NCBI RefSeq assembly: GCF_900167415.1
Contig: NZ_FUWU01000009.1
Location: forward strand, 1-56,178
Length of the DNA: 56,178 bases
Source of the DNA: Fibrobacter intestinalis
Lineage (GTDB): Bacteria > Fibrobacterota > Fibrobacteria > Fibrobacterales > Fibrobacteraceae
Reading direction: 5' to 3'
In this document: piece by piece, positions 15,672-47,900 of the stretch
Numbering within the stretch: the first letter of the stretch is position 1
Layout: every line of letters starts with the position of its first letter
Made by a program: the position numbers and the translations under genes
The notes under the pieces: generated by a model
Told to the model about the DNA's origin: nothing
Databases searched by the model: none
What the model saw: only the letters and a program-made list of their open reading frames with translations

Positions 15672-16733
15672 TTAACGGGTTTTGACGATGGTCCATGCTT
15701 CATCGAAAAGGCGGGCGGCGTCCCCCGGATCTTGCAGGAAGACCATGCGCTTGATTTCTTCTGCTGTTGGGTTGATGACGCGGTTTTCGGTAAAGTCCTT
15801 GTCCAAAAATTCGAGTGCCTTGGTGTTCGGCGTGGCGTAGTTGATGTATTTGGCCAGCTGCGCGCCGATTTTTCCATCGAGAATGTAGTTCATGAATTTG
15901 TACGCACCGTCGGGATTGGGAGCCTTGCTGCTGAGAGTCATGGCATCCACCCACATGAAGGATCCTTCCGTGGGAATCGCGAACTGGAGAGTGGAATCCT
16001 CGTCGATAGCTGCCATCGCTTCGCCGTTGAAAACGATGGCCGCCCAGTCCATTTTGGAAAGCACTTTGTCCTTGCCGCCGACGGAACCGTCAAAGCCGAG
16101 GAAGTGCGGATCCTTTTTCGCCTGCAAAATATATTCGACGGCCTGGTTGATTTCGTCCTTGCTTGTGCTGTTTGCATTGAAACCCTTTGCCTGCAAAGCC
16201 ATGGAGAGCATGGAACGGCTCTCTTCGAGCAAACTAAAATTGCCTTTGGTGTTCTTGGCGTCGAAAAGCATGCTGTAGCTGACGTTCATCGGGTCGATGG
16301 TGGAATCGCGATAGAGAATGCCGGTCGTTCCCCACAGATACGGAACGGTGTATTCGTTTGTCGGGTCGTAGCTCGGATTTTTGAATTGGTCGGCGATGTT
16401 TGTCTTGTTCGGGATTTTTTCCATATCGATTTTGCCGATAAGCCCCAAGTGGATCATCTGCTGGATAACGACATCGCTTGCGATGATGACGTCGTATTGG
16501 GCGGTGCCGACGGTCTGCAATTTGCTAATCATCTCTTCTTGCGCTTCGTAGAGTTCGATTTGCAGCTTGTAACCGGTCTGTTTTTCAAAATCGGTAATCA
16601 TATCCGGATCGATATATTCGCTGTAAATCATGACGGTGACTTTCGTCGGCTTGGCGGCTTCGTTTTTGGCCTCTTTGCAGCCGAACAGAGTGGCGACTGT
16701 CAAAATGGAGAGTGCGAGAAGAAATTTTTTCAA
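15672..16733 (-). CDS. PotD-like polyamine ABC transporter substrate-binding lipoprotein
   Basis: 353 residues. A lipoprotein signal (MKKFLLALSILTVATLFGC, lipid-carrying C19) precedes a periplasmic binding domain of the spermidine/putrescine type: VTVMIYSEYIDPDMITDFEK, YDVIIASDVVIQQMI, VPYLWGTTGILY, and a C-terminal region (NRVINPTAEEIKRMVFLQD) typical of PotD/PotF. It would bind polyamines outside the inner membrane and hand them to a PotABC importer. The ATPase and permease genes are not beside it; tgt follows instead. Ligand specificity is inferred from the family only. Confidence 0.85.
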   Translation of the reverse strand: MKKFLLALSILTVATLFGCKEAKNEAAKPTKVTVMIYSEYIDPDMITDFEKQTGYKLQIELYEAQEEMISKLQTVGTAQYDVIIASDVVIQQMIHLGLIGKIDMEKIPNKTNIADQFKNPSYDPTNEYTVPYLWGTTGILYRDSTIDPMNVSYSMLFDAKNTKGNFSLLEESRSMLSMALQAKGFNANSTSKDEINQAVEYILQAKKDPHFLGFDGSVGGKDKVLSKMDWAAIVFNGEAMAAIDEDSTLQFAIPTEGSFMWVDAMTLSSKAPNPDGAYKFMNYILDGKIGAQLAKYINYATPNTKALEFLDKDFTENRVINPTAEEIKRMVFLQDPGDAARLFDEAWTIVKTR

Positions 16734-17606: not shown

Positions 17607-18098
17607 ATGGCAAATTTGAATGATGATGACGAACTCGACTCTTTTTCGAATGAGCGGGCGAATGAAGACAATATCGAAAGCGCGATGAAACCGCATGATT
17701 ACAGTTCTCGTCGCGTTCTTGTATGGGAGGGCGACGATCAACGCCGGAATTACGCTGTCGAAGTGATTTCGACTCTTTTGACGGGGGCTTTTGTGGAGGG
17801 TGTCGCGACAGAGGCCGAAGCTTTGCAGAAATTGGACGAGGAGCTTTGGGATACTTTTGTCGTTGATTTTTATAACGAAGGCTGTTCTGAATCCGAATTT
17901 GTGAAAAAGGTGAACAACTATCCGGATTCGATTCTGGTCGCTTTGAACCTGGCGCCGTTTACCCTTCCCGAAGAGCGCAACCGTTACAAGATTGAACCTC
18001 TCCGCAAATTGTTTGAAATTGAAAAGCCCAAGGCGGAAGACGAAGAAGCATCTTCCGAGGATGAGGATTCCTTCAACGAGGATAATTTCAGGGATTGA
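17607..18098 (+). CDS. Degenerate receiver-like protein heading the ABC operon
   Basis: 163 residues. Residues about 35-125 follow a CheY-like alternation: RRVLVWEGDD (E41, D43, D44 in the acidic pocket), an amphipathic helix, then DTFVVDFYNEG with D87 where the phospho-acceptor would be, and SILVALNLAPF. The usual Thr and Lys switch residues are not clear, and no output domain exists; acidic low-complexity tails flank it. This is a structural inference, and the protein may instead be an unphosphorylated scaffold. The ATG follows AAAGGATTTCT. Its stop overlaps the ATPase start (TGATG), so it is the first gene of the transporter operon and may modulate it. Confidence 0.65.
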   Translation: MANLNDDDELDSFSNERANEDNIESAMKPHDYSSRRVLVWEGDDQRRNYAVEVISTLLTGAFVEGVATEAEALQKLDEELWDTFVVDFYNEGCSESEFVKKVNNYPDSILVALNLAPFTLPEERNRYKIEPLRKLFEIEKPKAEDEEASSEDEDSFNEDNFRD

Positions 18099-19192
18099 TG
18101 ATGGCAGAAGCCAAATCGGCGATTGATCTTGTCCATGTTTCCAAGGCTTACCCCGGAGAAGCCGATGCGGTAAACGATGTTTCGCTTTCCATTCGGGAGG
18201 GCGAATTCATCGTTCTGGTCGGTCCGTCCGGGTGCGGAAAGTCTTCGGTCTTGCGGATGATTGCCGGCTTGGAATCTCCGTCGCGCGGTAAATTGTTTTT
18301 GCATGGCAAGGACGCCAGTCGTCTGGAGCCGAAGGACCGCGACATTGCGATGGTCTTTCAAACCCATGCGCTTTATCCGCACATGACGGTTCGCGAGAAT
18401 CTGGAATTTGCCTTGCGCATGCGGGGAATTTATTCGGCGGCGGAAATCAAGGAGCGTCTCCGCGAAGCGATTGAAATTTTGGATCTGGATTCCATCTTGG
18501 ACAGGAAGCCGAAGCATCTTTCCGGAGGGCAGCGGCAACGCGTTGCTCTGGGGCGCGCCTTGGTGCGGAAGCCGAAGATATTTCTCTTTGACGAACCGCT
18601 TTCCGGTCTGGATGCCAAAATGAAAAACCAGATGTACGTGGAACTGGGACGGCTGCATTCCCGTTTGCAGGCGACGATGGTGTTTGTCACCCATGACCAG
18701 AACGAAGCGATGATGATAGGGGACAGGGTCGTCTGCCTTTCCAAGGGAGCCATCCAGCAGGTGGGAACGCCCATGGAATTGTATTCGCACCCGGCGAACG
18801 ATTTTGTGGCGAGTTTTATCGGCAACCCTCCGATGAATATCTTTGCGGCGCAGTGGACGTGGGACGGGCTCTTTTTTGAAAAGGCGGCTTTTACGTTTCC
18901 CGTTTCCGAAGATTTTCGGCGTCGCTTTGCCAATGTTCCAAGGCTTCTTGTCGGCGTTCGTCCGGAATTTTTTACGGTTTCAAATGCGTCGCCGACAGCG
19001 ATGGCCGTTACGGTTGAAGTCATCGAGCGGCTGGGGTTTGAAACCCTGATCTATGCCCAGTGCAACGACCAGAGCTTTGTTTTGCGCGTGCCTCCGACGG
19101 AATCTTTTTTTGTCGGGGAAAAGATATTTCTGTCTTTGGACGAAAAGAATATCCACCTGTTTGATATTTCGACGGGAGTCAGTTTCCTTTGA
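18098..19192 (+). CDS. Sugar-type ABC transporter ATP-binding protein (MalK/UgpC family)
   Basis: 364 residues from the ATG overlapping the previous stop. It contains Walker A GPSGCGKSS, the Q-loop region VFQTHALYPHMTV, signature LSGGQRQRVALGRA, Walker B IFLFDEPLSGLD and the H-switch FVTHD. The C-terminal 120 residues are the regulatory beta-barrel (TOBE/MalK-type) with RPEFF. It powers import of a sugar or sugar-phosphate through the two permeases encoded downstream. The substrate cannot be told from sequence. The stop lies 14 bases before the start of the binding-protein gene. Confidence 0.92.
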   Translation: MMAEAKSAIDLVHVSKAYPGEADAVNDVSLSIREGEFIVLVGPSGCGKSSVLRMIAGLESPSRGKLFLHGKDASRLEPKDRDIAMVFQTHALYPHMTVRENLEFALRMRGIYSAAEIKERLREAIEILDLDSILDRKPKHLSGGQRQRVALGRALVRKPKIFLFDEPLSGLDAKMKNQMYVELGRLHSRLQATMVFVTHDQNEAMMIGDRVVCLSKGAIQQVGTPMELYSHPANDFVASFIGNPPMNIFAAQWTWDGLFFEKAAFTFPVSEDFRRRFANVPRLLVGVRPEFFTVSNASPTAMAVTVEVIERLGFETLIYAQCNDQSFVLRVPPTESFFVGEKIFLSLDEKNIHLFDISTGVSFL

Positions 19193-19206
19193 TCGAGCGG
19201 TGCGCC

Positions 19207-20553
19207 ATGCGGATTTTCGCCGCTTTGCTGTGTGCGCTCGCCCTTTGGGGCTGTGAAACGGAGCGTTCCCTCAAAAAGGAAGTTCTTCAGCTTTGGATTA
19301 TGCCGAACAGTCCGGATCCGGCTGCGGATATGCTGCACGTCCTGCGCAATTTTGAATTGGAAAATCCCGGCATTGAAGTGCAGGTGACGATTCTCGACTG
19401 GAGCGTCGCCTGGACAAAAATCACGACGGCTGCGGCGACGCATAGCGGACCCGATGTCCTGCAGATGCCGACGACGTGGGCGGCTTCCATTTCGGCGATG
19501 GGAGCTTTGATGCCCCTTGATTCGCTGCTTGCCGTTTCGGGTGGGGATTCCGCTTTTGCGGAGGTTTCCATGAAGTTTGCGCGACCGGGGACTTCCTTTG
19601 CGACTTCGCTTCCTTGGTTTCTGGATGTTCGACCGCTTTTCTTTCGCCGGGACGTGCTGGCCGAAGCGGGAGTGGACCCGAAAACGCTGCTGAACTGGAC
19701 GGATTTCCGAAAGGCTCTTTTAAAAATTCAGAAGGCGGATTTGACAATCGAGGGAATGCGCATTGCGCCTATCGGATATCCCGGAAAGCACGATTGGAAT
19801 GTCATCCATAATTTGGCTCCCTGGATTTGGGGCGCTGGTGGGGATTTTCTGGATTCGACGGGAAGCGAAAGCCGTTTGGCGACAAAGGAAAGCATTGCCG
19901 GTATCCTTTTTTATTTGAATCTGGTCCGCGACGGATTTAACAGCAAAAAGAACTTGACGAAGAATACGAATCAGGTGAGCATGGATTTTGATGAAGGGCG
20001 GCTGGCTTTCTGGTTCGATGTGACGAACAAGACGCTTTATTTGGACAGTCCGCGTTTTTTGGGAGGCTCTTCCAAGAATGTGACGGCGCGCAATTATTCC
20101 GTGATGCTTCCGCCGACGGCCCCTGCCGGAAAAAGCACCTATTATTTTGCGGGCGGCTCCAATCTTTCCGTCTCCCGCTTTACCAAGCACAAGCGTTCGG
20201 CGATGGCGCTGGTTCGCTACCTTTCTTCCCGTCCGGACGTGCAGTTGGAACTTTCGCGCGTGACCGGTTTTTTGCCGGCGCTTCTTTCGACGTATGAATA
20301 TCCGTATTTCAAGGAAGATGAAACGCGGGGCGTTTTTCAGCAGATGATTTCACGCTTGCGTTCGTATCCGGCGGTACCTTATTGGGGAGAAATCGAAACG
20401 GAAATTCTTTTGCGTCGTTTTGGCAACATCTTTGACTTGATTACGTTGAGCGGCGACAACGCCTGGCCGGAAAAAGAAATCCTCTCGGAAATTCGTGCGG
20501 CGGACAGCGAAATCAACCGCTTTATTAAACGGCAGCGGGAGAGCGGCAAATGA
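19207..20553 (+). CDS. ABC transporter extracellular sugar-binding lipoprotein
   Basis: 448 residues from the ATG at 19207, chosen because it begins a clear lipoprotein signal (MRIFAALLCALALWGC, lipid-carrying C16). An in-frame TTG six codons earlier is less likely. Family 1 solute-binding features: a first strand LQLWIMPNS, SGPDVLQMPTTWAASISAMGALMPLD, an LPWFLDVRPLFFRRDVL hinge segment, and SRFTKHKRSAMALVRYLSS near the end. It captures the ligand in the periplasm for the MalF/MalG-like permeases that follow. The next gene starts inside its stop (ATGA). Confidence 0.88.
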   Translation: MRIFAALLCALALWGCETERSLKKEVLQLWIMPNSPDPAADMLHVLRNFELENPGIEVQVTILDWSVAWTKITTAAATHSGPDVLQMPTTWAASISAMGALMPLDSLLAVSGGDSAFAEVSMKFARPGTSFATSLPWFLDVRPLFFRRDVLAEAGVDPKTLLNWTDFRKALLKIQKADLTIEGMRIAPIGYPGKHDWNVIHNLAPWIWGAGGDFLDSTGSESRLATKESIAGILFYLNLVRDGFNSKKNLTKNTNQVSMDFDEGRLAFWFDVTNKTLYLDSPRFLGGSSKNVTARNYSVMLPPTAPAGKSTYYFAGGSNLSVSRFTKHKRSAMALVRYLSSRPDVQLELSRVTGFLPALLSTYEYPYFKEDETRGVFQQMISRLRSYPAVPYWGEIETEILLRRFGNIFDLITLSGDNAWPEKEILSEIRAADSEINRFIKRQRESGK

Positions 20554-21482
20554 CGAGGCGTTATTTCTTTATTTTGCCGATGCTGGCTTTTGCTGTCGTT
20601 TTTTTGATGGTGCCCGTCCTGTTCGGTCTGCTCCTTCCTTTTTTTGACGGAAATTCGCAGAACGCTCTGGGCGGTTCGTTCAGCATCCAGAATTTTTTCA
20701 AGGCGGTTTCTTCGGCTTCGGGAACGGGGCTTATCGACGCGGCGCGCAATACGGTGATTTACACGCTTTGCGTTTCTAGCGGAAGCATTGTGCTCGGTCT
20801 TTTTGGCGCGGTTATTGTAACGCAGAAGTTTCCCACGGTGAAAATCGTTCGCGGGCTGATGATGATTTCCTGGGTGGTTCCGACGTATATTGTCGGGCTT
20901 CTTTGGGGATTCATGTGGCAGCAGGATGAAGGCATTATCAATACGCTCCTGTTCGACTATTTGCATTGGGATCGGATTTCCGGCTTGTTCGGCGCCGTCT
21001 GGACGTATTCGGACAACGGAATTCTGATCAAGCCGAATTGGCTGACGGGACCGAATACGATTTGGGCGATTATCGTTCCGGCTATCTGGAGAAACTGGCC
21101 GTTTTGCATGATGATGTTTTTGTCGGCGATGGCGGCGATTCCACGGGATATTTACGAAGCGGCGGAATTGGACGGCGTGCCTAGCCGCGAGCGTTTTTTG
21201 CATATCACGCTTCCGATTCTCAAACCGATTTTTGCCGTCATTATTTTGGAATGCCTGGTCATCAATATGTATAGCTTCAATCTGGTGGCGATGATGTTCG
21301 GAAATGGAGCCGGCTTTCCGGGAAAATACGGCGACCTGATGATGACTTTTTTGTACCGCACGTCTTTCCAGACCTGGAATTTCGGGGCGGGAGCCGCTTT
21401 GGGAACGTTGATGATGATTGTAGCACTTTTCGGCGTTTCGCTTTGGTATCGGAATTTTGCAAAGGATTTGCACCATGCTTAA
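20550..21482 (+). CDS. Sugar ABC transporter permease (MalF/UgpA type)
   Basis: 310 residues with six predicted membrane helices, the first at about residues 5-28 (FFILPMLAFAVVFLMVPVLFG). The cytoplasmic EAA loop YEAAELDGVPSRERFLHITLP docks on the ATPase. It overlaps the binding-protein stop by four bases (ATGA) and the next permease by eight bases, so translation of the three is coupled. The long first periplasmic loop is of normal size here, unlike in its partner. Confidence 0.9.
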   Translation: MTRRYFFILPMLAFAVVFLMVPVLFGLLLPFFDGNSQNALGGSFSIQNFFKAVSSASGTGLIDAARNTVIYTLCVSSGSIVLGLFGAVIVTQKFPTVKIVRGLMMISWVVPTYIVGLLWGFMWQQDEGIINTLLFDYLHWDRISGLFGAVWTYSDNGILIKPNWLTGPNTIWAIIVPAIWRNWPFCMMMFLSAMAAIPRDIYEAAELDGVPSRERFLHITLPILKPIFAVIILECLVINMYSFNLVAMMFGNGAGFPGKYGDLMMTFLYRTSFQTWNFGAGAALGTLMMIVALFGVSLWYRNFAKDLHHA

Positions 21483-23646
21483 ATTCCTCGCCTGGGCTTT
21501 CGCTTTTTTGAATATCGCGCCGCTTTTATGGATGGTGTGGAGTTCCCTTTTGGGATCGAGCGAAATCCAGCAGGGGAAAATTCTTCCCGATCCGTATCCG
21601 AATGACGTCGTGTTTGTGGAAAAAATTTCGGATGGCCGCATTGTGGCGGGGACTTTGCACGGTCAGATTTACCAGTTTGAAAACGGAAATCTGGACTCTC
21701 CGATTCGCCGCTCTTTGGATCTCTCGGCGGTTTCTGTAAATTACACCGTTGCGGATTCCAGCCTCTATGCGTTTTCTCCGGATGAAGGCGTGATGCGGGT
21801 GAATTTGAATCGCTGGAAAGTGGATAATCGTTGGGATCTGGGGGATTTTGAAGAGGCGTATCGGAAAAGCGATTTCTCGGAATTCCGCTACGTTCCAAAC
21901 CAGATGCCTGAAGGAGAATTTTCCAGGCTCGGTGCCCTTCTCGATTCGCTTCCGCTTGCGGAAAACGCCAAGTGGACTTTGGCGGAAGTTTTGGGTTCGC
22001 CTTTTCCCCGGGATTCTTCGATAATTCAAAAACTCAATGGCATTTTGAATTCTCCGCAAGTGCTTGCGCGGGTAATTGGCGTCTGGCAGGGAAAATCGGA
22101 CTGGGTGAACCCGGCTATCGGCAGCCTTTTGAAAAAAAGGAACCGCTCCGATGCAGATAATCGTCGTCTGTTCCGCTGGTGCCTTGCAGAACGGGCTCCT
22201 AGCCCGCTGACGATTTTTCGGCAGATTCCGTGGACGCCTATCTGGGTGAATCGTGTTCCTGCCAGCGATCACGGGGTTTCAGTGGTGAGCGCTGGCGATT
22301 ACTTGTGCGTGGGCATGTGGTGGGAACAGTTTCCGGGAATTGCCTTTGTACACAAAAAGACGGGAAAAATCCATTGGCTGACTTCGCAGTGGGGGCTTCC
22401 CTCCAGTTCCGTGCAGCGGATTTTGCGGATTTCGGATTCGGAAATCCTGGTGGCGCACGACCAGGGATTTTCCTTGGTCGAAGTGGAGAGGCAAAAAGTC
22501 AAGGCGAATTATCTTTTTGGCGAAGGCGGTCTTCCCTTTTATAACGGGCGGGATTTGCGCTTGTCCGTGGTGAATCGCAGTGCGATGCTGTTTGCCTGCG
22601 GGCGGCAGATTGTCTTTTTCGATATCCGCGCGGGGCGCGCCATAAAACGGCTTTACGAGGATTCGGAGCTTTTCCAGTCCGATATTTCCGTTATCAAGAG
22701 CGGCGAAGAACGCGTCTTTTTTGGACTTGTAGGCGGGCTCGTGGAAATGAACTTGTGGGATTTGTTGAGCGAAGTCGGCAACCAGAAAACCTATTCCGTT
22801 CTAGGGACGGCGACAAGTCTTTCTTTGGATGGAAACCGCTTGCTGGTCGGCATGCAGGGCGGCAAAATCTCCCTTCTCGACTTGGAAAATCCAGAAAGAA
22901 ATCAAAATCTCCAATTGCCAGAAGGCGGCATTTATTTGCATTGGCGAAATTATGAAGACTTGCTCCGTATGATTCCCTTTGGCACTTTTTTCACCAACTC
23001 GCTCTTGATTTGCGGGACGACGGTTTTGATTTGCCTTTTGCTGGGTTCTTTGGCGGGCTTCGGGCTTTCCCGGGCGACGAGAAAGTTGCGTATTGTGGTC
23101 AATGCGGGGCTAATCTGGAGCCAGATTGTGCCAAACGTCCTCCTTTTGATTCCCGCTTTTTTGCTGGCTTCGTATTGGCAACTGCATACGCCGATTCAAA
23201 TGCTGAACACCCGATGGGGAATCATTCTGTTGTACTCGGTCCTTTTCTTGCCGATGACGGCTTGGATTTTGCAGAATTTTTTCCGCTCGGTTCCCCGGGA
23301 AATCGAAGAAGCGGCGATGATTGACGGCTGCACGGCGTTTTCCGCCTTTTTTCGGGTCATTGTGCCGTCGTCTTTGCCGGGGATTTTGGCGACGGGAATT
23401 TACGTCTTTATTCTGGCGTGGGACGAGCTGATGTTCGCCTGGGTATTTTCGATGGACACTTCGTCGGCGACGATTCCTGTCGGTCTGCGCCTCTTTTTTG
23501 GACAATTCGGCTCCCGTTTTGACTTGATGATGGCTGCGGCGACTTTATCGACTTTGCCTGTCATCGTCCTCTTTTTGATTGTGCAACGCAAATTGCTGAG
23601 TGGATTCGCCGGTAGCCATTCGGCAGACGTTAAGAACAAGGGTTAG
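21475..23646 (+). CDS. MalG-type ABC permease with a large periplasmic propeller-like insert
   Basis: 723 residues against about 280 for ordinary MalG-type permeases. Helix 1 is residues about 5-25, then the chain follows the normal loop start (SSLLGSSEIQQGKILPDPYP). A domain of about 470 residues (roughly 30-500) interrupts it, and the permease resumes with WRNYEDLL..FFTNSLLICG, helices 2-6 and the EAA loop EEAAMIDGCTAFSAFFRVIVP. The insert repeats strand patterns such as DGRIVAGTLHGQIYQFENG, GLPSSSVQRILRISDSEILVAHDQG and DGNRLLVGMQGGKISLLDL, like sensor beta-propellers (Reg_prop/PQQ/WD type). It should lie in the periplasm next to the binding protein. The ATG at 21475 overlaps the previous gene; its frame is open slightly upstream. 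Substrate unknown. Confidence 0.88.
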   Translation: MLKFLAWAFAFLNIAPLLWMVWSSLLGSSEIQQGKILPDPYPNDVVFVEKISDGRIVAGTLHGQIYQFENGNLDSPIRRSLDLSAVSVNYTVADSSLYAFSPDEGVMRVNLNRWKVDNRWDLGDFEEAYRKSDFSEFRYVPNQMPEGEFSRLGALLDSLPLAENAKWTLAEVLGSPFPRDSSIIQKLNGILNSPQVLARVIGVWQGKSDWVNPAIGSLLKKRNRSDADNRRLFRWCLAERAPSPLTIFRQIPWTPIWVNRVPASDHGVSVVSAGDYLCVGMWWEQFPGIAFVHKKTGKIHWLTSQWGLPSSSVQRILRISDSEILVAHDQGFSLVEVERQKVKANYLFGEGGLPFYNGRDLRLSVVNRSAMLFACGRQIVFFDIRAGRAIKRLYEDSELFQSDISVIKSGEERVFFGLVGGLVEMNLWDLLSEVGNQKTYSVLGTATSLSLDGNRLLVGMQGGKISLLDLENPERNQNLQLPEGGIYLHWRNYEDLLRMIPFGTFFTNSLLICGTTVLICLLLGSLAGFGLSRATRKLRIVVNAGLIWSQIVPNVLLLIPAFLLASYWQLHTPIQMLNTRWGIILLYSVLFLPMTAWILQNFFRSVPREIEEAAMIDGCTAFSAFFRVIVPSSLPGILATGIYVFILAWDELMFAWVFSMDTSSATIPVGLRLFFGQFGSRFDLMMAAATLSTLPVIVLFLIVQRKLLSGFAGSHSADVKNKG

Positions 23647-24115
23647 TAATCAGTTGGAAGTAGAATGTGGGGAGTTGGGTCACTCCGAGGCGCGGAGTGA
23701 ACTCCGTCATTGCGATCCGTGCTACATCGTCATTGCGAGCGGTAGCGAAGCAATCTTATAGCCCATTCCCGAACTTTAGGATGGAGGCTTTGCTCTATTC
23801 GCCTAAAGGGAGCAAAGCTTCCAAGCCTTATGGGGGCAGCCACTTCTTCCATTGCTAGCGTCTCGTTGTCTGCGAAAAACTTCGAAGTTCCATTTTGTAA
23901 TTTTACGAAGCTTTGTCCTTGCGCATAAGAAATCCCCGGAAAAATCCATTCCTGCCTGGGAATACGGCGATTCCTTGTGACAAAAGGCGGTTGCGGAACA
24001 TTGACCATAATTTCCCAAAATATCGTCAATTGAAAATGCCGCGGCTTTGCGCTTGTTGGGGCATATAACTCCCTAAAAATTCTATATTCTCGGCGGTTCT
24101 TTTTGGAGTTTTTTG
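23647..24115. repeat. Gap with dispersed CATTGCGA repeats and a hairpin
   Basis: No supported gene. Two partial CATTGCGA..GAAGCAATC repeats lie at 23706-23757. A GGAG-headed hairpin follows: GGAGGCTTTGCTC at 23783-23795 and GAGCAAAGCTTCC at 23810-23822, 13 bp with one mismatch. An agttgggagttgg-type stretch starts the gap. TATATT at 24083-24088 is a likely promoter box for the next gene. Confidence 0.55.
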
Positions 24116-25945
24116 ATGGCTGTTGCAAGAAAAAAATCGGAAGAGTCCCGGATGACGCGGATTTCCCGGATGTATTTCAATCGGATGTTTCCCAAACGAA
24201 TGGATGCTTTGAAGGTCGCTCTTTCGGTTTTTGCGGGCGTGTTCATCGGAATCATGCCCACAATCGGCATCGCCATCATTTTGACTGTCGCCGCCTGTGC
24301 TTTTTTCAAACTTCCCAAGGTGCCGGGAGTCGTGTCGTCTTTTGTGGCGAATCCGCTGACCCAGTTCGGTTTCTTTTATCCGTCGGGATATTATATCGGG
24401 AAAAAAATTCTCCAGCCTTCGGCGATTTCTTTTGATTTCCTTCGGGAATTGGAAGGCCTCTCCTTTAGAAATTGCATCGATGTCGTGACTCGGCTTTGGA
24501 ACGAAGCCTCCGGACACCTTTTGGCATTTTTGCTCGGCATCACCTTTATTGCGCTGGTTTTTGGAATCGCTTTCGGAGTTGCCGCCTATTTCATCGTTTC
24601 CTACCGCAAAAAGAAGCACATTGCGATTAAAAACAAGTATATTCAGGAACTGATTTCCGAAGACCAGAAAATCATTAAAGAAGCTAAACTCAAAGGAAAA
24701 CACATGCATATCTTTCCGTTTAAAGCACTCCGTCCTGTGGATCCGAGTCAGGCCAAGGACATTTCCGCTTTGCCTTATGACGTCATGAACCGCGAAGAAG
24801 CCAAGGAAATGGCGAAGGGTTTGCCCCATTCCTATTTGCGCATCACCCGTGCGGAACTGGAACTGCCGGATTCTGTCGAGGCTTACGACCCGCAGGTCTA
24901 TGCCCACGCTAAAGAAAATCTGGACAAGTTCATTGCGGACGGCGTTATCGCTTTCGATAAAAAGAACTGCCTCTACATTTATCGCCAGACGATGAATGGG
25001 CGGGAACAATACGGACTGGTCTGCACAGTTCCAGCAAAGGATTATTTTGACAACATCATCAAGAAGCACGAGCTGACCCGCAAGGATAAGGAAGACGACC
25101 GTCTGCGCCACGTTCTGGCGACGAATTCGAATACGGGGCCCGTGTTTCTCACCTATCGGGATCAGGGACAGTTTGAACTGCTCAAAAAAATTATCGCCCG
25201 CGACCCGGTCTATGATTTTGTGACGGAGGCCGACGGCTTTGGGCATACGGTATGGGTCATTGACGACGACAATGAAATCGAAGAAATTTGCCGTTCGTTC
25301 GATTCTGTTCCCGTGTGCTATATCGCCGACGGGCATCATCGCAGTGCCGCTGGAGCTCGTGCCGCCGGATACCGTGCCGCCCAGAATCCCAATAACCGCG
25401 GCGACGAGGAATACAACCGCTACCTGGCGATTCTCTTCCCGAGTACCCAGCTGAAAATTCTGGATTACAACCGCGTCCTCAAAGATTTGAACGGGCGCAC
25501 GCAGGAAGAATTTTTTGCGGAACTGGAAAAAGTCTTTTCTATTGAGAAGCTCCCGTCCGCGGCGCATCCGTCCAAGCAGAACGTGGTGAATATGTATATC
25601 GGCGGAAACTGGTATGCGTGCGCGTTTAAGCCGGAATATCTGGAGGATTTGGGACCTGTCGATAGTCTGGACGTCGCCCTTTTGCAGAAGCTCGTTCTGA
25701 AGCCGCTCTTCAACGTGGACGATCCGCGCACGGCGAAGAACATCGATTTTGTGGGCGGAATCCGCGGGCTGGGCGAACTCGAGAAACGCGTGGATTCCGG
25801 TGAATGCGCCTGCGCTTTTGCCATGTATCCGACGACCCTTGACCAGTTGATGGCGATTGCGGATGCTGGCGAAATCATGCCGCCGAAGAGCACCTGGTTT
25901 GAACCGAAACTTCGGGACGGCCTTTTGGTCCACTCCTTGGATTGA
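24116..25945 (+). CDS. Fusion of a DUF2062 membrane domain and a DUF1015 domain
   Basis: 609 residues from the ATG at 24116, with GGAG at 24105-24108. Residues about 1-195 match DUF2062: RMDALKVALSVFAGVFIGIMPTIGIAIIL, SSFVANPLTQFGFFYPSGYYIG and a second helix pair. Residues about 205-609 match DUF1015: FPFKALRPVDPSQAKDISALPYDVM, SYLRITRAELELP, IYRQTMNGREQYGLVC, the strongly conserved YIADGHHRSAAGARA, and a terminal STWFEPKLRDGLLVHSL. DUF1015 shares a fold with ParB/SerK nucleotide-dependent enzymes, including free-serine kinases, so a cytoplasmic kinase-like role is possible (inference). Each domain is usually a separate protein. It is a single gene with a likely promoter at 24083. Confidence 0.85.
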   Translation: MAVARKKSEESRMTRISRMYFNRMFPKRMDALKVALSVFAGVFIGIMPTIGIAIILTVAACAFFKLPKVPGVVSSFVANPLTQFGFFYPSGYYIGKKILQPSAISFDFLRELEGLSFRNCIDVVTRLWNEASGHLLAFLLGITFIALVFGIAFGVAAYFIVSYRKKKHIAIKNKYIQELISEDQKIIKEAKLKGKHMHIFPFKALRPVDPSQAKDISALPYDVMNREEAKEMAKGLPHSYLRITRAELELPDSVEAYDPQVYAHAKENLDKFIADGVIAFDKKNCLYIYRQTMNGREQYGLVCTVPAKDYFDNIIKKHELTRKDKEDDRLRHVLATNSNTGPVFLTYRDQGQFELLKKIIARDPVYDFVTEADGFGHTVWVIDDDNEIEEICRSFDSVPVCYIADGHHRSAAGARAAGYRAAQNPNNRGDEEYNRYLAILFPSTQLKILDYNRVLKDLNGRTQEEFFAELEKVFSIEKLPSAAHPSKQNVVNMYIGGNWYACAFKPEYLEDLGPVDSLDVALLQKLVLKPLFNVDDPRTAKNIDFVGGIRGLGELEKRVDSGECACAFAMYPTTLDQLMAIADAGEIMPPKSTWFEPKLRDGLLVHSLD

Positions 25946-35619: not shown

Positions 35620-36720
35620 ATGAAAAAATCGACAATTTCTTTCTCTTGTTTTATAACTGGAATTTTTATTGGAATTTTTGTATTGACCGCTTGCTCTTCG
35701 GAAAATACGCCTCAGCCGTCCAAGGCAGCCCGAAAAGGCGCAGGGGCGAAAACGCTTCGTGTTTCGGGCTACATCGCTCGGGAAGATTCCACATCGGGAG
35801 TATATAGCACGGACGGTGAACTTGTCGCAGCGAATCAGGTGGATGTCGCCGCGGAAACGGCGGGCAAAGTTGTCAAGCTCTATGCAAAAGACGGCCAATC
35901 GGTTTCTCAGGGATTTCTCCTTGCCAAACTCGACGATGCGGAGTTGCAGGCGAATTTGAAAAGCGCAAAGGCTTCCCTGGATCTGGCGCAAAAAAAGGCG
36001 GCGCGCATCAAGACGCTCTTTGAAAAGGACGGGGCGACAGCCGAAGAGCTGGAAGCCGCAGAGAGTGCGGTTCAATCGGCAGAGGCTTCCCGGGATTTGA
36101 TTCTTGCCCAATTGAAAAAAACGGAAATTCGCGCGCCTTTCGTCGGCGTTTTGGGAGTGGTCGATATTTCCGAGGGGGCTTGGATTACTGCGGGTTCTAA
36201 AATTGCCACTCTCACGGACAAGCGAAAACTCAAAGTGGATTTTGATTTGCCGCAGCGCTATGCGTATAGCGTTAAAAATGGGGACAAGGTGGAACTGATG
36301 GATTCGGAACGGGGCGAAAGTTTTGTTGCGAAAATCGCTTTCATGGATGCCACGCTCTCCAATTCCAGTCGCACACGCAAAGTTCGAGCGATTGTCGATA
36401 ATGCGAATAAAAAATTGCTCGCCGGAACCTATGTCCGCGTTCGCTTGAATTTTGGAAACGGAACCGTCGCGGGCTTTCCGATTCCCTCCGAAGCGGTGAC
36501 TTTGGATGCGAACGGGGCGTTTGTCTTTATCGTCAAAGAGGGCAAAGCGCAGGAAGTCCGCGTAAAAACGGGGCTTCGCACGCCGATAACGGTGAATATT
36601 CTCTCCGGCCTTTCGGCGGGAGACACCGTCGTTGTTTCCGGTTTGATGAATGTCCGTAACGGAATGTCTTTGGAAATCAAGGACATTGTGAACAACATGA
36701 ATTACGGGGTAAAGGAATGA
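35620..36720 (+). CDS. RND efflux system membrane-fusion lipoprotein
   Basis: 366 residues. A lipoprotein signal ends at LTAC (C25). The HlyD/AcrA plan follows: a lipoyl half-motif (QVDVAAETAGKVVKLYAKDGQSVSQGFLLAKLDD), a coiled-coil hairpin of about 80 residues, the second half-motif (IRAPFVGVLGVVDISEGAWI), and beta-barrel and membrane-proximal domains (LRTPITVNILSGLSAGDTVV). It bridges pump and outer-membrane channel in the periplasm. AGGTTGA precedes the ATG. The stop overlaps the start of the fused pump-channel gene (ATGA). Confidence 0.92.
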   Translation: MKKSTISFSCFITGIFIGIFVLTACSSENTPQPSKAARKGAGAKTLRVSGYIAREDSTSGVYSTDGELVAANQVDVAAETAGKVVKLYAKDGQSVSQGFLLAKLDDAELQANLKSAKASLDLAQKKAARIKTLFEKDGATAEELEAAESAVQSAEASRDLILAQLKKTEIRAPFVGVLGVVDISEGAWITAGSKIATLTDKRKLKVDFDLPQRYAYSVKNGDKVELMDSERGESFVAKIAFMDATLSNSSRTRKVRAIVDNANKKLLAGTYVRVRLNFGNGTVAGFPIPSEAVTLDANGAFVFIVKEGKAQEVRVKTGLRTPITVNILSGLSAGDTVVVSGLMNVRNGMSLEIKDIVNNMNYGVKE

Positions 36721-39700
36721 GTTTTTCGACTCTTTCAATTCGTCGTCCCGTATTGATGACGGTGCTGGCTTTGGGCATTGTCCTTGTCGGGGCTTTCGGG
36801 GCGATGAATTTGGGCATTCGGGAATATCCCAATGTGGATTCGCCAATTATTACTGTTCGCACGACTTATACGGGGGCGAATGCCGCGGTCGTGGAATCAG
36901 AAGTGACGGAAATCATCGAGGCTTCGGTGAACAGCGCGGCGGGCATCAAGTCGCTCACTTCGACCAGTTCCGATGGCAGCTCCACAATTCGTGCGGAATT
37001 TGAAGTGGGAACGGATTTGGAAGCGGCGGCGAATGATATTCGGGACCGGGTTTCCCGGGTGACGCGGAGATTGCCCGATGCTGCGGACGCTCCTGTGGTT
37101 TATAAGTCGGACTCGGATTCGGATCCGATTTTAATCGTGAGCCTTTTGTCCGATACGCGGGATGCGATGGAGCTTTCGGAGATTGCGACGAATGTGGTCA
37201 AGGAAAAATTGCAGACGATTGCGGGAGTTTCCGAAGTGAGCCTTTGGGGCGCAAGAACGCCCGTCGTTCGCCTGTGGCTGGATCCGCTTCGTATGAAAGC
37301 TTTGGGTGTGACCCCTTCCGATGTTTCGCAGGCCATCAGCCGCGAAAATGAAGAACTTCCTGCGGGAAAAATTGAAGGCCAGACAATGGATCTTTCGATT
37401 CGTACCTTGGGCCGTTTGGAAAAACCTGCCGAGTTTAATTCAATCCCGATAAAAACGGCTTCGGACGGCTCTATTGTCAGGCTTTCCGATGTGGCTACTA
37501 TCCATTATGAACCCAAGGATACGCGCACGGGATTTAAACGCAATGGCAAAAATACGATTGCTGTCGCCTTGATAGCCCAACCGGGGTCGAACCATGTCTC
37601 CATTGCCGACGATTTTTACAAGCGCGTGGAAGAACTCCGCCGGGATATGCCTTCGGACGTGAAAATCGTGAGCGGCATGGATTCCTCCATCAATATCCGT
37701 TCTTCGATTCGCGAAGTGATAGAAACGATTTTCATTTCTTTTCTCTTGGTCGTTGCCGTCATTTTCTTCTTTTTGCGGGAAGCTCGGACCACGTTGATTC
37801 CGATGATTGTCATTCCCGTTTCCCTTGTCGGTAGCTTTTTCGTCCTCTATCTTTTCGGATTTTCCATCAACGTGCTGACTCTTTTGGCGATGGTTCTGGC
37901 GATAGGCCTGGTTGTCGATGATGCGATTGTCATTGTGGAAAACATCTACCAGAAAATCGAACGGAAGATGTCTCCTAAACAAGCCGCCGTAGCGGGAATC
38001 AACGAAATCTTTTTTGCGGTTATCGCAACCTCTGTCGTTCTGATGGCCGTCTTTGTGCCGATGCTCGCCTTGGGTGGAATGACGGGGCTTCTTTTTCGGG
38101 AATTTGTGGCGGTGATGATTGGGACCGTCGTGATTTCCACATTCTGCGCTCTGACTTTGACGCCCATGCTTTGCTCCAAAGTGTTGCGCGTGCAGAAAAA
38201 AGGCTTTCTGTACGAAAAAACGGAACCGATATTTGTGTGGCTGAACGAGCTTTACAACACGTTGCTCAACGGTTTTTTGCGGGTGCGCGGACTGATTTTC
38301 GTCATCATCGCTTTGTTGCTTGGCGCAGCCTATTTCTGCTTTAACAATCTTTCTAGCGAAATGGCTCCGCAAGAGGACAGCAATATGTTCATGGTGAACA
38401 TCTCGGCTCCCGAAGGGACGGGACTCGGGCAGACAAAAAAGATGACCGAGGCTTTTGTCGAAGAAATGACGGCCTTGATGGATTCTTCGGAATATGAAGA
38501 AATTCAGGCGGGCGCGCGTTCCGGCGGCAGTTCCATGATTCGCGTGACGCTTTCTAGCGACAAGTCCAAACGCCGTTCGCAAAGCGAGATCGCCCGTTCC
38601 GTACAGATTCTGGGAGCGAGCTATCCGGATTTGCGGGTGATGGTATTTGAACCGCAGAGCATTAGTACGGGGCGCGGTGGACTTCCTGTGCAATTCGTAC
38701 TTCAGGCGGGGAATATCGAAACCCTTCGGGACTTGCTTCCCGTCTTTACCGCCGAAGCGGAAAAAAGCGATGTTTTTAGCGTGGTCAATGCCAACTTGAA
38801 ATTCACGAAACCGGAACTTCATGTACAGATTAACCGCGACAAGGCTCACGACCAGAACGTTTCTGTGGACGACATTGCCAAAGCGGTAGCCCTCTCGATG
38901 GGCGACCAGACTTATGGGGAATTTTATCAGGACGGCAGGCAATACGATGTCATCGGGGCGGTCCCTTACGAATATCGCGCCGAGCCGACGAACTTGGAAG
39001 AACTCAGCGTGCGAAACGGCGCAGGGGAAATGCTTTCCGTTTCAAATTTCGTCTCCTATGTGGAAAAATCGGCGTCTCCATCTCTTCCGCGTTACAACCG
39101 CTTTAGTGCTGCGACGATTTCCGCAGGTCTCATGCCGGGAAAGACCATCGGCGACGGGGTTGCCGAAATGCGGCGAATCGCTAAAAAGGTCATTCCGGAT
39201 TCTTTGAATATTCAAACGGAACTTGCGGGCACTTCCAAGGAATACGAGGAAAGTTCTTCGGGGCTTTACATCGTTTTCCTTTTGGCGCTGGCTTGCATTT
39301 TCTTGGTTCTTGCCGGGCAGTTTGAAAGCTACCGTTCGCCCTTCGTCACTTTCTTCACCGTGCCGCTGGCGATTGCGGGTGCCATCATTTCGCTTTATCT
39401 CTTTGGGCAGACTCTGAATATATTCAGTGAAATCGCCCTGATTCTTTTGCTGGGACTGGTGACAAAAAATGGCATTCTGATTGTGGAATTTGCGAATCAG
39501 ATTATGGCTAGAACCGGTTGCTCTCGATTGGCTGCGGCGAAAAAGTCTGCGCGTTTGCGCTTCCGCCCGATTCTCATGACGAGCCTTTCCACGGTTCTGG
39601 GGGCGGTTCCCCTGATTATGACGGGAACGCCTAGCCGTGTGGCGATGGGCGTTACCATCGTCTGCGGTCTTACCTTTGCGACATTCCTGACGCTATTTGT

Positions 39701-41102
39701 CGTCCCTGCTGCCTATTCGTTTTTTGCGGGAAAGCCTGTGGAAAAAGCGAATGCCCAAAATGGAAAGGGCGGTCTGGCGAAATCGCCGGCTCTCTCCCTC
39801 TTGTTGGGCGCGTTCTTGATTTTGCCGGTGAAATCCTTTGCTGGACTTTCTCCCGAAGAGGCGGTGCGCACGGCTCTCGAAAAGAATACGGGCGTGCTGA
39901 TTTCCGAAGAAAAGGTCAAAAACGCCGAAGTTGCTCAGAAAAGCGCGCGCAAAGGCCTTTTGCCGACTCTGGATCTTTCGCTCTCCCGTTATTACACCTA
40001 CGGCGATTCCTATTCCAAAACGCAGGCTGGAGTGGCTACGGATATCGACGATAATTTGGGGCGCAGCGATGCGTTTCAGATTGCGGTGAATTATACCGTT
40101 TTCGATGGCTTTCGGGATATTTCCAGTTACAAATCGAGCAAGGCTCAAATCGAAAGTTCCAGGGCGGCATTTCGGGCAGAAAGGGAAGCTTTGGCTGCAA
40201 AAGTTTTAAACGCCTATTTCGAAGCCGTTCATGCAAAATCCGCGTCGGCTCTTTCCGATTCCAATCTTCAGGTTTCTCGTGCCCGCCGGGAACTTTTCCA
40301 AAATAAACTGGACGCCGGATCCGTTACCCGCTTGGATTATCTCTCTGCGGAAATGGATTTTAAAAGCGACAGTGCGGCAAACCTTTCCACCAAATCGCAG
40401 CTGGCGTCGGCGATCCGTTCTTTGGATGAATTGCTGGGAGGGAACGTGATTTCGGATGCCCGGGATTTACCGGATTCCGTTGCCGTAGAAAGAAATCTGT
40501 ATTGGCTCTCTCCGGAAGGACTTTTGGAAGCGAAGCAACGCGCCGTCGAAAACAATGCGGAACTCGCTGCGGCCAGAGCGCAGATGAATTATGCGCAAAT
40601 CCATCGGCAGGGTTCGTCCTCGTCCTTGTATCCCAAGCTCAATTTGCAGGGTTCCTGGAATGCGACAGCCAGCGAATCGGACAAGGGAAATCCCGAGAAA
40701 TCGAACAGCCAGTATTTTCGGATTGGTGCGGATTTGACGTGGAATCTTTTTAACGGTTTTGCCGACAACGCGACAGTGGAAACCGCGAAAATCGCGGAAC
40801 GTTCTGCGGAATTGCAGGTGGAAAACGTACGCTTGAATGTCGAAACAAATGTGGCGAATGCCGTAGAGTCGCATTCTCGGGCGCTAGAATCTTTGGAAGT
40901 GGCGGAGGGCAATGATTCGCTGGCAAGGGAATTGCTGCAGCTCGGCGAGGAACGTCTCAAAGCGGGACGCATTACCGCTTTTGAATTTCGGGAAACGCAG
41001 AGCCAGTGGCGTTCTGTGCGGGAAGCGTTGCTCTCGGCGGCGGTAACGGCCCGAAAGGCGCAAATCCAAGTGGAACTGCTGACGGGGGAGATTTTGAAGT
41101 AG
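36717..41102 (+). CDS. RND efflux pump fused to a TolC-type outer-membrane channel
   Basis: 1461 residues. Residues 1 to about 1010 are a complete HAE1/AcrB-type proton-driven pump: 12 membrane helices, the proton-relay pair in GLVVDDAIVIVEN, a large periplasmic domain in two halves and GLVTKNGILIVEFANQIM. Residues about 1045-1461 are a complete TolC-family outer-membrane factor (LSPEEAVRTALEKN, LDAGSVTRLDYLSAEMDF, LYPKLNLQGSWN, RLKAGRITAFEFRETQSQW). Between them residues about 1023-1045 (ALSLLLGAFLILPVKSFA) look like a complete signal sequence with an A-x-A-type cleavage site. The likely outcome is cleavage releasing the channel after export of its segment. With the lipoprotein upstream this makes a whole tripartite efflux system from two genes. 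Confidence 0.93.
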   Translation: MSFSTLSIRRPVLMTVLALGIVLVGAFGAMNLGIREYPNVDSPIITVRTTYTGANAAVVESEVTEIIEASVNSAAGIKSLTSTSSDGSSTIRAEFEVGTDLEAAANDIRDRVSRVTRRLPDAADAPVVYKSDSDSDPILIVSLLSDTRDAMELSEIATNVVKEKLQTIAGVSEVSLWGARTPVVRLWLDPLRMKALGVTPSDVSQAISRENEELPAGKIEGQTMDLSIRTLGRLEKPAEFNSIPIKTASDGSIVRLSDVATIHYEPKDTRTGFKRNGKNTIAVALIAQPGSNHVSIADDFYKRVEELRRDMPSDVKIVSGMDSSINIRSSIREVIETIFISFLLVVAVIFFFLREARTTLIPMIVIPVSLVGSFFVLYLFGFSINVLTLLAMVLAIGLVVDDAIVIVENIYQKIERKMSPKQAAVAGINEIFFAVIATSVVLMAVFVPMLALGGMTGLLFREFVAVMIGTVVISTFCALTLTPMLCSKVLRVQKKGFLYEKTEPIFVWLNELYNTLLNGFLRVRGLIFVIIALLLGAAYFCFNNLSSEMAPQEDSNMFMVNISAPEGTGLGQTKKMTEAFVEEMTALMDSSEYEEIQAGARSGGSSMIRVTLSSDKSKRRSQSEIARSVQILGASYPDLRVMVFEPQSISTGRGGLPVQFVLQAGNIETLRDLLPVFTAEAEKSDVFSVVNANLKFTKPELHVQINRDKAHDQNVSVDDIAKAVALSMGDQTYGEFYQDGRQYDVIGAVPYEYRAEPTNLEELSVRNGAGEMLSVSNFVSYVEKSASPSLPRYNRFSAATISAGLMPGKTIGDGVAEMRRIAKKVIPDSLNIQTELAGTSKEYEESSSGLYIVFLLALACIFLVLAGQFESYRSPFVTFFTVPLAIAGAIISLYLFGQTLNIFSEIALILLLGLVTKNGILIVEFANQIMARTGCSRLAAAKKSARLRFRPILMTSLSTVLGAVPLIMTGTPSRVAMGVTIVCGLTFATFLTLFVVPAAYSFFAGKPVEKANAQNGKGGLAKSPALSLLLGAFLILPVKSFAGLSPEEAVRTALEKNTGVLISEEKVKNAEVAQKSARKGLLPTLDLSLSRYYTYGDSYSKTQAGVATDIDDNLGRSDAFQIAVNYTVFDGFRDISSYKSSKAQIESSRAAFRAEREALAAKVLNAYFEAVHAKSASALSDSNLQVSRARRELFQNKLDAGSVTRLDYLSAEMDFKSDSAANLSTKSQLASAIRSLDELLGGNVISDARDLPDSVAVERNLYWLSPEGLLEAKQRAVENNAELAAARAQMNYAQIHRQGSSSSLYPKLNLQGSWNATASESDKGNPEKSNSQYFRIGADLTWNLFNGFADNATVETAKIAERSAELQVENVRLNVETNVANAVESHSRALESLEVAEGNDSLARELLQLGEERLKAGRITAFEFRETQSQWRSVREALLSAAVTARKAQIQVELLTGEILK

Positions 41103-44939: not shown

Positions 44940-47900
44940 ATGCTGGCCAAAGAGCAAAAGGCGAGAGCGAAAGAATTTGTGGAAAAATGGTCCGGAAAAA
45001 ACGACGAAAAGGAGCACTGTCAGCTTTTCTGGATAGACCTTTTGCAGGATGTTTTCGGAATAAAAAATGTCAGCGAGTACATTTCTTTTGAAGATAAAGT
45101 CAAGCTGGGCCACACCAGCTTTATCGATGCGCGGATAAAGTCCGCCAAAGTCCTCATTGAACAGAAATCGGGTTCCGTGGATTTGCGAAGTGCCGCAAAG
45201 CAAAGCGACGGAACGCTTTTGACTCCCTACCAGCAGGCGAAAAGATACGCCAGCGAATTGCCGGTTTCGGAACACCCCCGTTGGATTGTCTGCTGCAACT
45301 TCAAGTCCTTTCTGGTCTATGACATGGACGCCTTAGGGAAGGAGCCCGAAGAAATTTTGCTTGCCGATTTGCCCAAGGAATACAACCGGCTGAATTTCCT
45401 GTTGAACGAGACGAAAGTGAACCTGCAAAGGGAAATGGACATTTCCATCCAGGCGGGGGAGCTGGTGGGTAAAATTTACGATGCCCTTTTCAAAGAGTTC
45501 CCGGACAAAAATTCCATCGTTACCCACCGCAGCATAAACACCTTGTGCGTCAGGCTGGTCTTTTGTCTTTATGCCGAGGATTCCGGCATTTTCGGCCACG
45601 ACATGTTCAGCAACTATGTCAATAGTTTCCATGCGGACAACGTGGACTTGGGGCTTAAGGAATTGTTCAAAATTTTGAACACGAAGGAAGAGTCCCGCAG
45701 CCCCCTGTTGAAAGACAAGCTGAAATGCTTTCCCTACGTGAACGGCGGGCTGTTCGACGATGGGAAACTGGACGAAGATTCCATACTCATTCCGCCATTC
45801 AGCGAAGAAACGAAAAAAGTCCTGGTGGAAGAATGCGGCTTCGGCTTTGACTGGAGCGGCATCAGCCCCACTATTTTCGGCGCCGTTTTTGAATCAACAT
45901 TGAACCCGGAAACCAGGCGCAACGGCGGAATGCACTACACCAGCATCGAAAACATCCACAAGGTCATCGACCCGCTGTTCCTTGGCGGCCTGAACGAAGA
46001 ATTTGAAAGCCTGGTTTCCAAAAAGGGCTTAAGCAGGAAATCGAAGAGGGAGGCCCTGGAAAAATTCCGGGACAAAATTTCGAAGCTGAAATTTCTGGAC
46101 CCCGCCTGCGGCAGCGGCAACTTTCTGACGGAATCCTTTATGAGCTTGCGCAGGCTCGAAAACAAAGTCCTGCGGGAACTGCAAGACGGAAGCAGACAGA
46201 TGGAGCTGGGCGGCGAGTTCTCTCCCGTCAAGGTGAGCATCCACCAGTTTTTCGGCATCGAAATCAACGACTTCGCGGCCACGGTGGCGATGACCGCGCT
46301 ATGGATTGCCGAATGCCAAATGCTGCAGGAAACGGAAGACATCCTGGGCGAAGCATTGGACTTTTTGCCCTTGAAGAATTACGCCAACATTGTTTTAGGG
46401 AACGCCCTGAAAATCGACTGGAAGACGTTGAATGCGAACGAAAGTCTTGGCGGCATCTTTGCCGACGCCGAAAAATCCGAAGACGAAATCCACTACGACT
46501 ACATCATGGGAAATCCGCCGTTCGTGGGATATTCTTTGCAGAGCAAGGGGCAAAAGGAGGATGTGGCATCCATAATGCCCAAAGGAATCAAGAACGTCGA
46601 TTACGTCGCCCTGTGGTACTACAAGGCGGCTCGGCTGATACAAAACACGGCCACGCGCTGCGCCTTCGTTTCCACAAACTCTATCTGCCAAGGCGAGCAG
46701 GTGACGGCGGTTTGGAAGCACTTGTTCGAAGAGCTTGGCATAACCATCGACTTTGCCTACCGCACCTTCCGCTGGGACAGCGAATCGACGCAAAAAGCGC
46801 ACGTCCATTGCGTGATAGTGGGATTTAGCATGGGAGAAGCGGCTCTGGGGAAAGCGGCTCTGGGGGAAGCGGCGTCCTCGCCGCTTAATCTCAAAACATC
46901 ATCAAGCGGCGGGGAAGCCGCTTCTCCTAAACGCATCTTCGACGGCGAAAAAGTAGAGTTCGCCGACAACATCAATGCCTACCTGCTGAATGCGCCGAAC
47001 GTTTGGATTGACAAACGGACAACGCCGCTGTGCGATGTGCCTCAGTTTGTCAGGGGCTGCCAACCTACGGACGACGGCAACCTGATTCTGATGAATGAAG
47101 AAAAAGAGCAATACCTCAAAAATGAGCCGCAGGCCGAAAAGTTCTTGCGCCCGTTCATGATGGGCAAGGATTTCATCGACCGCAAACCCCGTTGGTGCTT
47201 CTGGCTTGTGGAAGCGAACCCCTCCGACTTGCGCAAGTGCCACTCACTGCTTGGACGAATAGAGAACGTGCGGAAATTCCGCCAAAGCAGTACAAAACCC
47301 GCCACCCAAAAGAAAGCCGAAACCCCCACTCTTTTTGACGAGATAAGGGAGCCGCAAAGCGATTATGTAGCCTTACCTACTGTTTCTTCGGAGGGTAGGC
47401 GGTATATACCTATCGATTTTTTACCCAAAGAAGTAATCCCTGGAAACAAAATATATTTTTTGCAAGGGGCGACTCTTTATCACTTCGGCGTGCTCGTGTC
47501 GAGCGTTCACATGGCGTGGATGCGGGCAGTTTGCGGTCGCCTCGAGATGCGATACAACTACTCGAACACAATCGTCTACAACAACTTCCCGTGGCCGGGA
47601 AAAGCGGCTCTGGGGGAAGCGGCGTCTCGCCGCTTGAATAACAATTCTACCCCGGGAGAAGCAACCTCCTCGCCGCTTAATCTCAAAACATCATCAAGCG
47701 GCGGGGACGCCGCTTCTCCTAACTACCTCGAAAAAAGCGCCGAAATCAAAGTCAAGCAGGCCAATCTGCCGCATTGGGAACAGGACGGAACAACGTGTTT
47801 TGTCACCTTCCGCCTTGCCGACGCCATGCCGCAAGAAAAATTGGACGAATGGCGCGCCGAAAAAGAACTCTGGCTCAAGCGAAACCCCGATCCATGGGAC

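Follow-up and report, generated by a model that had tools for sequence, protein, structure and literature searches.

What does a large, propeller-like domain do in the first periplasmic loop of an ABC importer permease? The question is raised by a 56,178-nucleotide stretch of the Fibrobacter intestinalis genome (assembly GCF_900167415.1, contig NZ_FUWU01000009.1, positions 1-56,178, forward strand; hereafter the window), in which a 723-residue MalG-type permease carries such an insert. To our knowledge, a large folded domain in the first periplasmic loop of a MalG-type subunit is undescribed, and a search of open-licence papers found none.

The operon and its probable substrate

The operon is compact, adjacent genes from 17607 through 21475 overlapping by a few bases, and it encodes, in order, a receiver-like protein, a MalK-type ATPase, a binding lipoprotein, a MalF-type permease and, last, the MalG-type permease (Table 1). 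The ATPase has the Walker A (GPSGCGKS), LSGGQ and FDEP motifs and a TOBE region. Pfam, NCBIfam and motif evidence thus places a binding protein, a second permease and an ATPase beside the MalG-type permease, and we conclude that 17607-23646 is a type I carbohydrate ABC importer operon. The sequence-only reading had described the neighboring permease as having normal loops; indeed, this 310-residue protein contains nothing comparable to the insert.

Table 1. Coordinates of the operon genes and of the parts of the MalG-type permease in the window
Feature	Position	Strand	Basis
Receiver-like acidic protein, 163 aa, operon head	17607..18098	+	No Pfam family; VVD Asp conserved
ATPase subunit, UgpC/MalK type	18095..19192	+	Pfam; NCBIfam PRK11650, 437 bits
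Solute-binding lipoprotein, beta-glucoside/cellodextrin type	19189..20553	+	PDB 7c63 series, CbpB 7x0i; lipobox-like ALWGC
MalF-type permease, 310 aa, without large periplasmic insert	20550..21482	+	Pfam BPD_transp_1; EAA-type motif in sequence
MalG-type permease with predicted propeller insert, 723 aa	21475..23646	+	ORF, Pfam, AlphaFold2
TM helix 1, residues 2-24	21478..21546	+	AlphaFold2 model
Periplasmic insert, residues 33-488 (about 455 aa)	21571..22938	+	Alignment, AlphaFold2 model, core comparison
Predicted propeller blades 1-2, residues 43-121	21601..21837	+	Model strands 45-120
Predicted all-helical block between blades 2 and 3, residues 122-257 (136 residues)	21838..22245	+	AlphaFold2 model
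Predicted propeller blades 3-7, residues 258-482	22246..22920	+	Model strands 268-480
Permease core TM2-TM6, residues 489-723	22939..23643	+	Model; SugB/MalG matches
EAA coupling-helix region, residues 608-632	23296..23370	+	Alignment of relatives

The binding protein is homologous over nearly its full length to the Thermus beta-glucoside-binding protein (7c63 series; residues 31-437, E=2e-86) and to Clostridium thermocellum CbpB (7x0i; residues 33-447, E=2e-75). Cellodextrins and laminaribiose are ligands of CbpB and its Thermus homolog, and C. thermocellum is described as taking up cellodextrins through transporter B alone (PMC9601137). Because these two are its closest matches, the system most likely imports cellodextrins or related beta-gluco-oligosaccharides. 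The window operon contains no glycoside hydrolase gene, so it is the binding protein that carries this substrate assignment. GH26, CBM9, GH94, GH48 and GH8 genes occur in propeller-bearing or orthologous loci elsewhere, and GH1-like sequences lie near L040 and L076 (by eye). Locus L056 (5953-6900) and its Saganbacteria relatives have a gene for a GH26-like lipoprotein immediately 5' of the MalF-type permease, in the slot occupied elsewhere by the binding protein, and 3' of the permeases one for a second GH26-CBM9 protein.

Two flanking genes also deserve mention. Directly 3' of the operon, a 610-residue protein (24113-25945, + strand) fuses DUF2062 and DUF1015 (Pfam), and other members of the genus have a homolog in the equivalent place. 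On the 5' side, next to tgt, a divergent gene (15672-16733, - strand) encodes a second binding protein, PotD-like by eye.

Predicted fold and relatives of the insert

The MalG-type gene is one open frame of 723 residues from its ATG, free of internal stops (an upstream TTG start would give 729 residues). BPD_transp_1 (residues 522-706, 53.9 bits against a cut-off of 26.4) is the sole Pfam domain above cut-off in this protein, in which Y_Y_Y, histidine kinase and receiver domains are absent by the same search; over the insert, PQQ_2 appears below cut-off and no family above it. We modeled the protein with AlphaFold2 from an alignment of 35 insert-bearing relatives (mean pLDDT 82.4, pTM 0.71). 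The model has six TM helices, TM2-TM6 starting at residue 502, and the insert occupies the first periplasmic loop, between TM1 and TM2. Its strands fall into fours (45-82, 89-120, 268-302, 313-347, 362-393, 406-443 and 445-480), predicting seven blades, in the last two of which strands merged by DSSP were split by hand; seven helices form a block at about residues 122-257. Foldseek matched the model to 1392 PDB chains at E<=0.001, and beta-propellers dominate the best 50 of these 1392. The insert is thus strongly predicted to be a seven-bladed beta-propeller plus a helical block. The sequence-only reading had proposed a propeller-like domain of about 470 residues in this loop; the model bears out both the propeller and the approximate size, but not that the whole insert is propeller, since the helical block had been overlooked. 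This block has no Pfam family, and a PDB search with it returned one meaningless match (E=0.25).

Outside the insert, the protein is a conventional subunit of its class. Its core matches SugB (E=1e-26) and MalG (E=7e-19) by phmmer, and E611, E612, A614, D617 and G618 of the EAA region are nearly invariant among insert-bearing relatives. The window system therefore resembles MalFGK2-MalE and SugABC in its permease core, EAA region, MalK/UgpC-type ATPase and binding protein, but among solved structures no MalG/SugB relative matches the insert. The comparison with CbpB-type systems rests on Bacillota orthologs other than that of C. thermocellum itself, and in those examined the permease has no insert. 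The known large accessory loop of this transporter class, MalF-P2 (residues 91-271 of MalF; PMC3150292), is on the opposite subunit and is not a propeller.

Which propellers, then, is the insert related to? A single-sequence PDB search with the window's own insert found no match. Among the 35 single relatives, Reg_prop was detected in 4 and PorZ_N_b_propeller in 10, and the window propeller appears too diverged to give a Reg_prop signal alone. A profile built from twelve propellers of Margulisbacteria and of a second Fibrobacterota family, however, matched 3ott (1.7e-29), 4a2l (3.8e-23) and 3v9f (1.1e-19) in the PDB. By this profile comparison, the nearest solved relatives are the Reg_prop glycan-sensor propellers of Bacteroides hybrid two-component systems (HTCS). 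Like the window propeller, these sensors (3ott, BT4663 4a2l, BT3049 3v9f) are periplasmic and attached to a TM helix; unlike it, they have two propellers, a Y_Y_Y domain and a kinase, whereas the window protein has a single propeller, neither of those domains, and places it in a permease loop. BamB and PQQ propellers share the fold, consistent with the weak PQQ_2 match, but BamB is a lipoprotein rather than a permease insert and is a far weaker match to the profile (E ~2e-3 versus 1e-29). BamB has eight blades.

Conservation and distribution

Could the 723-residue frame be an artifact, an assembly join or fusion of two genes, as the sequence-only reading had considered? This is practically excluded. 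The collinear architecture is identical in many independent assemblies, including 11 genomes of the window's family, among which one is assembled into a lone 3.1-Mb contig; there are no internal stops; and the insert is under purifying selection throughout, its dN/dS being 0.03-0.15, against 0.01-0.06 for the permease core, in pairs permitting an estimate. Conservation within the insert is uneven. Across 23 relatives in the family, columns at least 90% conserved number 26 of 136 in the helical block and 20 of 89 in blades 3-4, against 8 of 163 in blades 1 and 5-7. The best-conserved parts are therefore distant from the linkers, a pattern that would fit a partner-binding surface away from the membrane.

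We then asked how widely the architecture occurs, with the caveat that these counts rest on genome samples. In Fibrobacterota, an insert-bearing permease is present in 28 of 168 genomes, 23 of them among the 111 genomes of the window's family and 5 in a second family. Eleven family genomes have the full-length architecture, the other ten proteins being 35-73% identical to the window protein over about their whole length, and twelve more have shorter or more diverged inserts; one of the family's proteins, L023, would retain roughly blades 1-4 and the helical block, judging from the alignment. The permease is absent from the ~80 genomes of the family's largest genus. The helical block, as far as alignments tell, is specific to the window's family, being absent from the second Fibrobacterota family and from Margulisbacteria. 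In the latter phylum, 46 of 74 genomes have an ortholog, one per genome; classed by frame length, 28 have a long insert, 6 an insert of ~200 residues and 10 none, and 2 are cut by contig ends, so that 34 of the 46 bear an insert. A search of 199 Elusimicrobiota, 400 Chloroflexota and 398 Bacillota genomes also found orthologs, none of them with a propeller or other insert; three oversized frames from this search proved, by eye, to be a permease fusion or overshooting frames. Among the phyla sampled, propeller-bearing orthologs were therefore found in Fibrobacterota and Margulisbacteria only.

The ~200-residue form was modeled separately (the membrane part of the model was poor and was left out). 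For most of its insert, residues 34-236, the pLDDT is about 92, and sixteen strands, or four blades, are predicted. Alignments suggest that the middle blades are the ones missing. Foldseek matched this model to propellers, yet the targets had seven or eight blades and the rmsd was 12-20 A; the matches alone do not prove a closed four-bladed ring. Over aligned positions, four-blade forms share about 80% identity with no-blade forms in the core. It is thus strongly predicted that the propeller is a variable element, with seven, four or no blades on conserved permease cores. On a tree of the core alone, its presence and absence require at least four changes, and a single clade uniting every propeller-less form is rejected (p-AU 0.0006). 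Gain and loss are not told apart by this tree. The propeller-less L067 is weakly supported as an event separate from the other propeller-less Saganbacteria (p-AU 0.044). Its core groups with four-blade forms and its loop resembles that of another propeller-less clade, possibly reflecting loop recombination.

Possible roles of the propeller

The reading that we favor, tentatively and at a little under an even chance, is that the propeller is an accessory docking or recognition platform beside the binding-protein site of a cellodextrin-type importer. Docking and ligand sensing had both been listed as possible roles in the sequence-only reading. Our reading draws on the position of the insert relative to MalG contacts, its predicted fold and profile matches to glycan-sensor propellers, the homology of the binding protein, the conservation pattern and purifying selection within the insert, and the retention of a binding protein. 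Directly after the insert, N492-Y493 are invariant in 35 of 35 aligned sequences. The phmmer alignment pairs query residue 504 with MalG 83, and extrapolating this offset by a dozen residues would make N492-Y493 correspond to the MalG 70-72 segment. In simulations, MalG 70-72 is reported to be in direct contact with MalE, and evidence cited in the same paper indicates that the MalE N-lobe interacts mainly with MalG (PMC3150292). Since the insert ends just before the equivalent of this segment, the propeller should stand at the docking rim. There it would be beside the docked binding protein and might hold it, or offer its oligosaccharide, at the entrance of the permease, a role akin to that attributed to MalF-P2 for MalE, but from the opposite subunit. 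The propeller would tune capture or affinity, while the basic transport cycle would run without it. Certain observations weigh against, or constrain, such a platform. Its closest solved relatives work as sensors rather than as docking domains. Propeller-less orthologs keep similar gene surroundings (L048 versus L056), so any docking role must be dispensable; and because the helical block is missing from Margulisbacteria and the second Fibrobacterota family, one shared interface is not required.

The profile matches to sensor propellers suggest instead that the propeller might be a built-in sugar sensor: it would bind oligosaccharide in the periplasm and, by way of TM1, relay its state either to an unlinked signaling protein or to the permease and ATPase. 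We consider this unlikely, although it is the next most plausible reading. Beyond these matches and the Reg_prop and PorZ_N_b_propeller hits among the relatives, it is consistent with what is described for large HTCS sensor domains, which contain Reg_prop propellers and answer to complex oligosaccharides (PMC3243724). Yet the Y_Y_Y, kinase and output domains are missing, and an output-less sensor is hard to square with repeated presence and absence on an otherwise unchanged transporter.

The sole signaling-like neighbor, the 17607 protein, is not supported as that output either. It has a WDTFVVD motif, whose conserved VVD aspartate suggests a receiver-like fold. The sequence-only reading had raised the idea that the propeller reports to it, and co-occurrence speaks against this: 17607 homologs are found in 106 of the family's 111 genomes, with or without the transporter, against 23 of 111 for the propeller permease. 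In the transporter-less largest genus, nearly all of the ~80 genomes have a homolog, in other neighborhoods. In family loci inspected with sufficient flanking sequence, the gene is mostly linked to the operon (homolog and permease are on different contigs in G104, and also in G009, G013 and G004, the last three having short contigs), but propeller-bearing loci outside the family have no recognizable copy. With a family-wide distribution independent of the transporter, 17607 was rejected as a dedicated partner of the propeller.

Alternatively, the propeller might bind another envelope component, such as an outer-membrane lipoprotein or porin, peptidoglycan or a glycoside hydrolase, and so position the importer, as BamB acts in the Bam complex. 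We regard this as distinctly unlikely. It would fit the weak BamB/PQQ_2 match, the presence of BamB among the Foldseek matches listed, and the finding of propeller-bearing orthologs in Fibrobacterota and Margulisbacteria only, the Bacillota and Chloroflexota orthologs having none; however, the propeller-bearing loci inspected share no conserved envelope-protein neighbor, and several Margulisbacteria lack the propeller. Just behind it in probability, and also distinctly unlikely, is the stronger proposal of a transceptor, in which the ABC subunit would have acquired a sensor domain derived from hybrid kinases. This domain would sense periplasmic beta-glucan oligosaccharides independently of the binding protein and gate or report transport.

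That the primary substrate receptor is the propeller, instead of or together with the binding protein, as Saganbacteria loci without a binding-protein gene beside the permeases might suggest, is very improbable: a binding-protein gene is part of the window operon, and an SBP_bac_1 protein, in nearly all cases one of ~410-540 residues, is encoded in 36 of 36 Margulisbacteria genomes examined, whatever their propeller state, implying that the propeller is an addition and not a substitute.

Whichever role proves correct, these orthologous importers, whose blades number seven, a predicted four or none and which retain a binding protein, constitute a ready-made comparison. They allow one to ask what accessory periplasmic domains add to ABC importers, and whether Reg_prop propellers recognize glycans outside signaling proteins. 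The answers bear on the uptake of cellulose fragments, which is poorly understood, in gut and rumen relatives of Fibrobacter.

Two other long frames in the window were noted by eye. A single 1461-residue frame (36717-41102, + strand), with an adaptor-like gene at 35620 immediately upstream, is an apparent fusion of an AcrB-like RND efflux pump and a TolC-like outer-membrane factor. A 1252-residue frame (44940-48698, + strand) is DNA methyltransferase-like, and its C-terminal half contains a segment resembling a REP-associated (Y1-type) transposase together with Gly-Glu-Ala-Ala-rich repeats.
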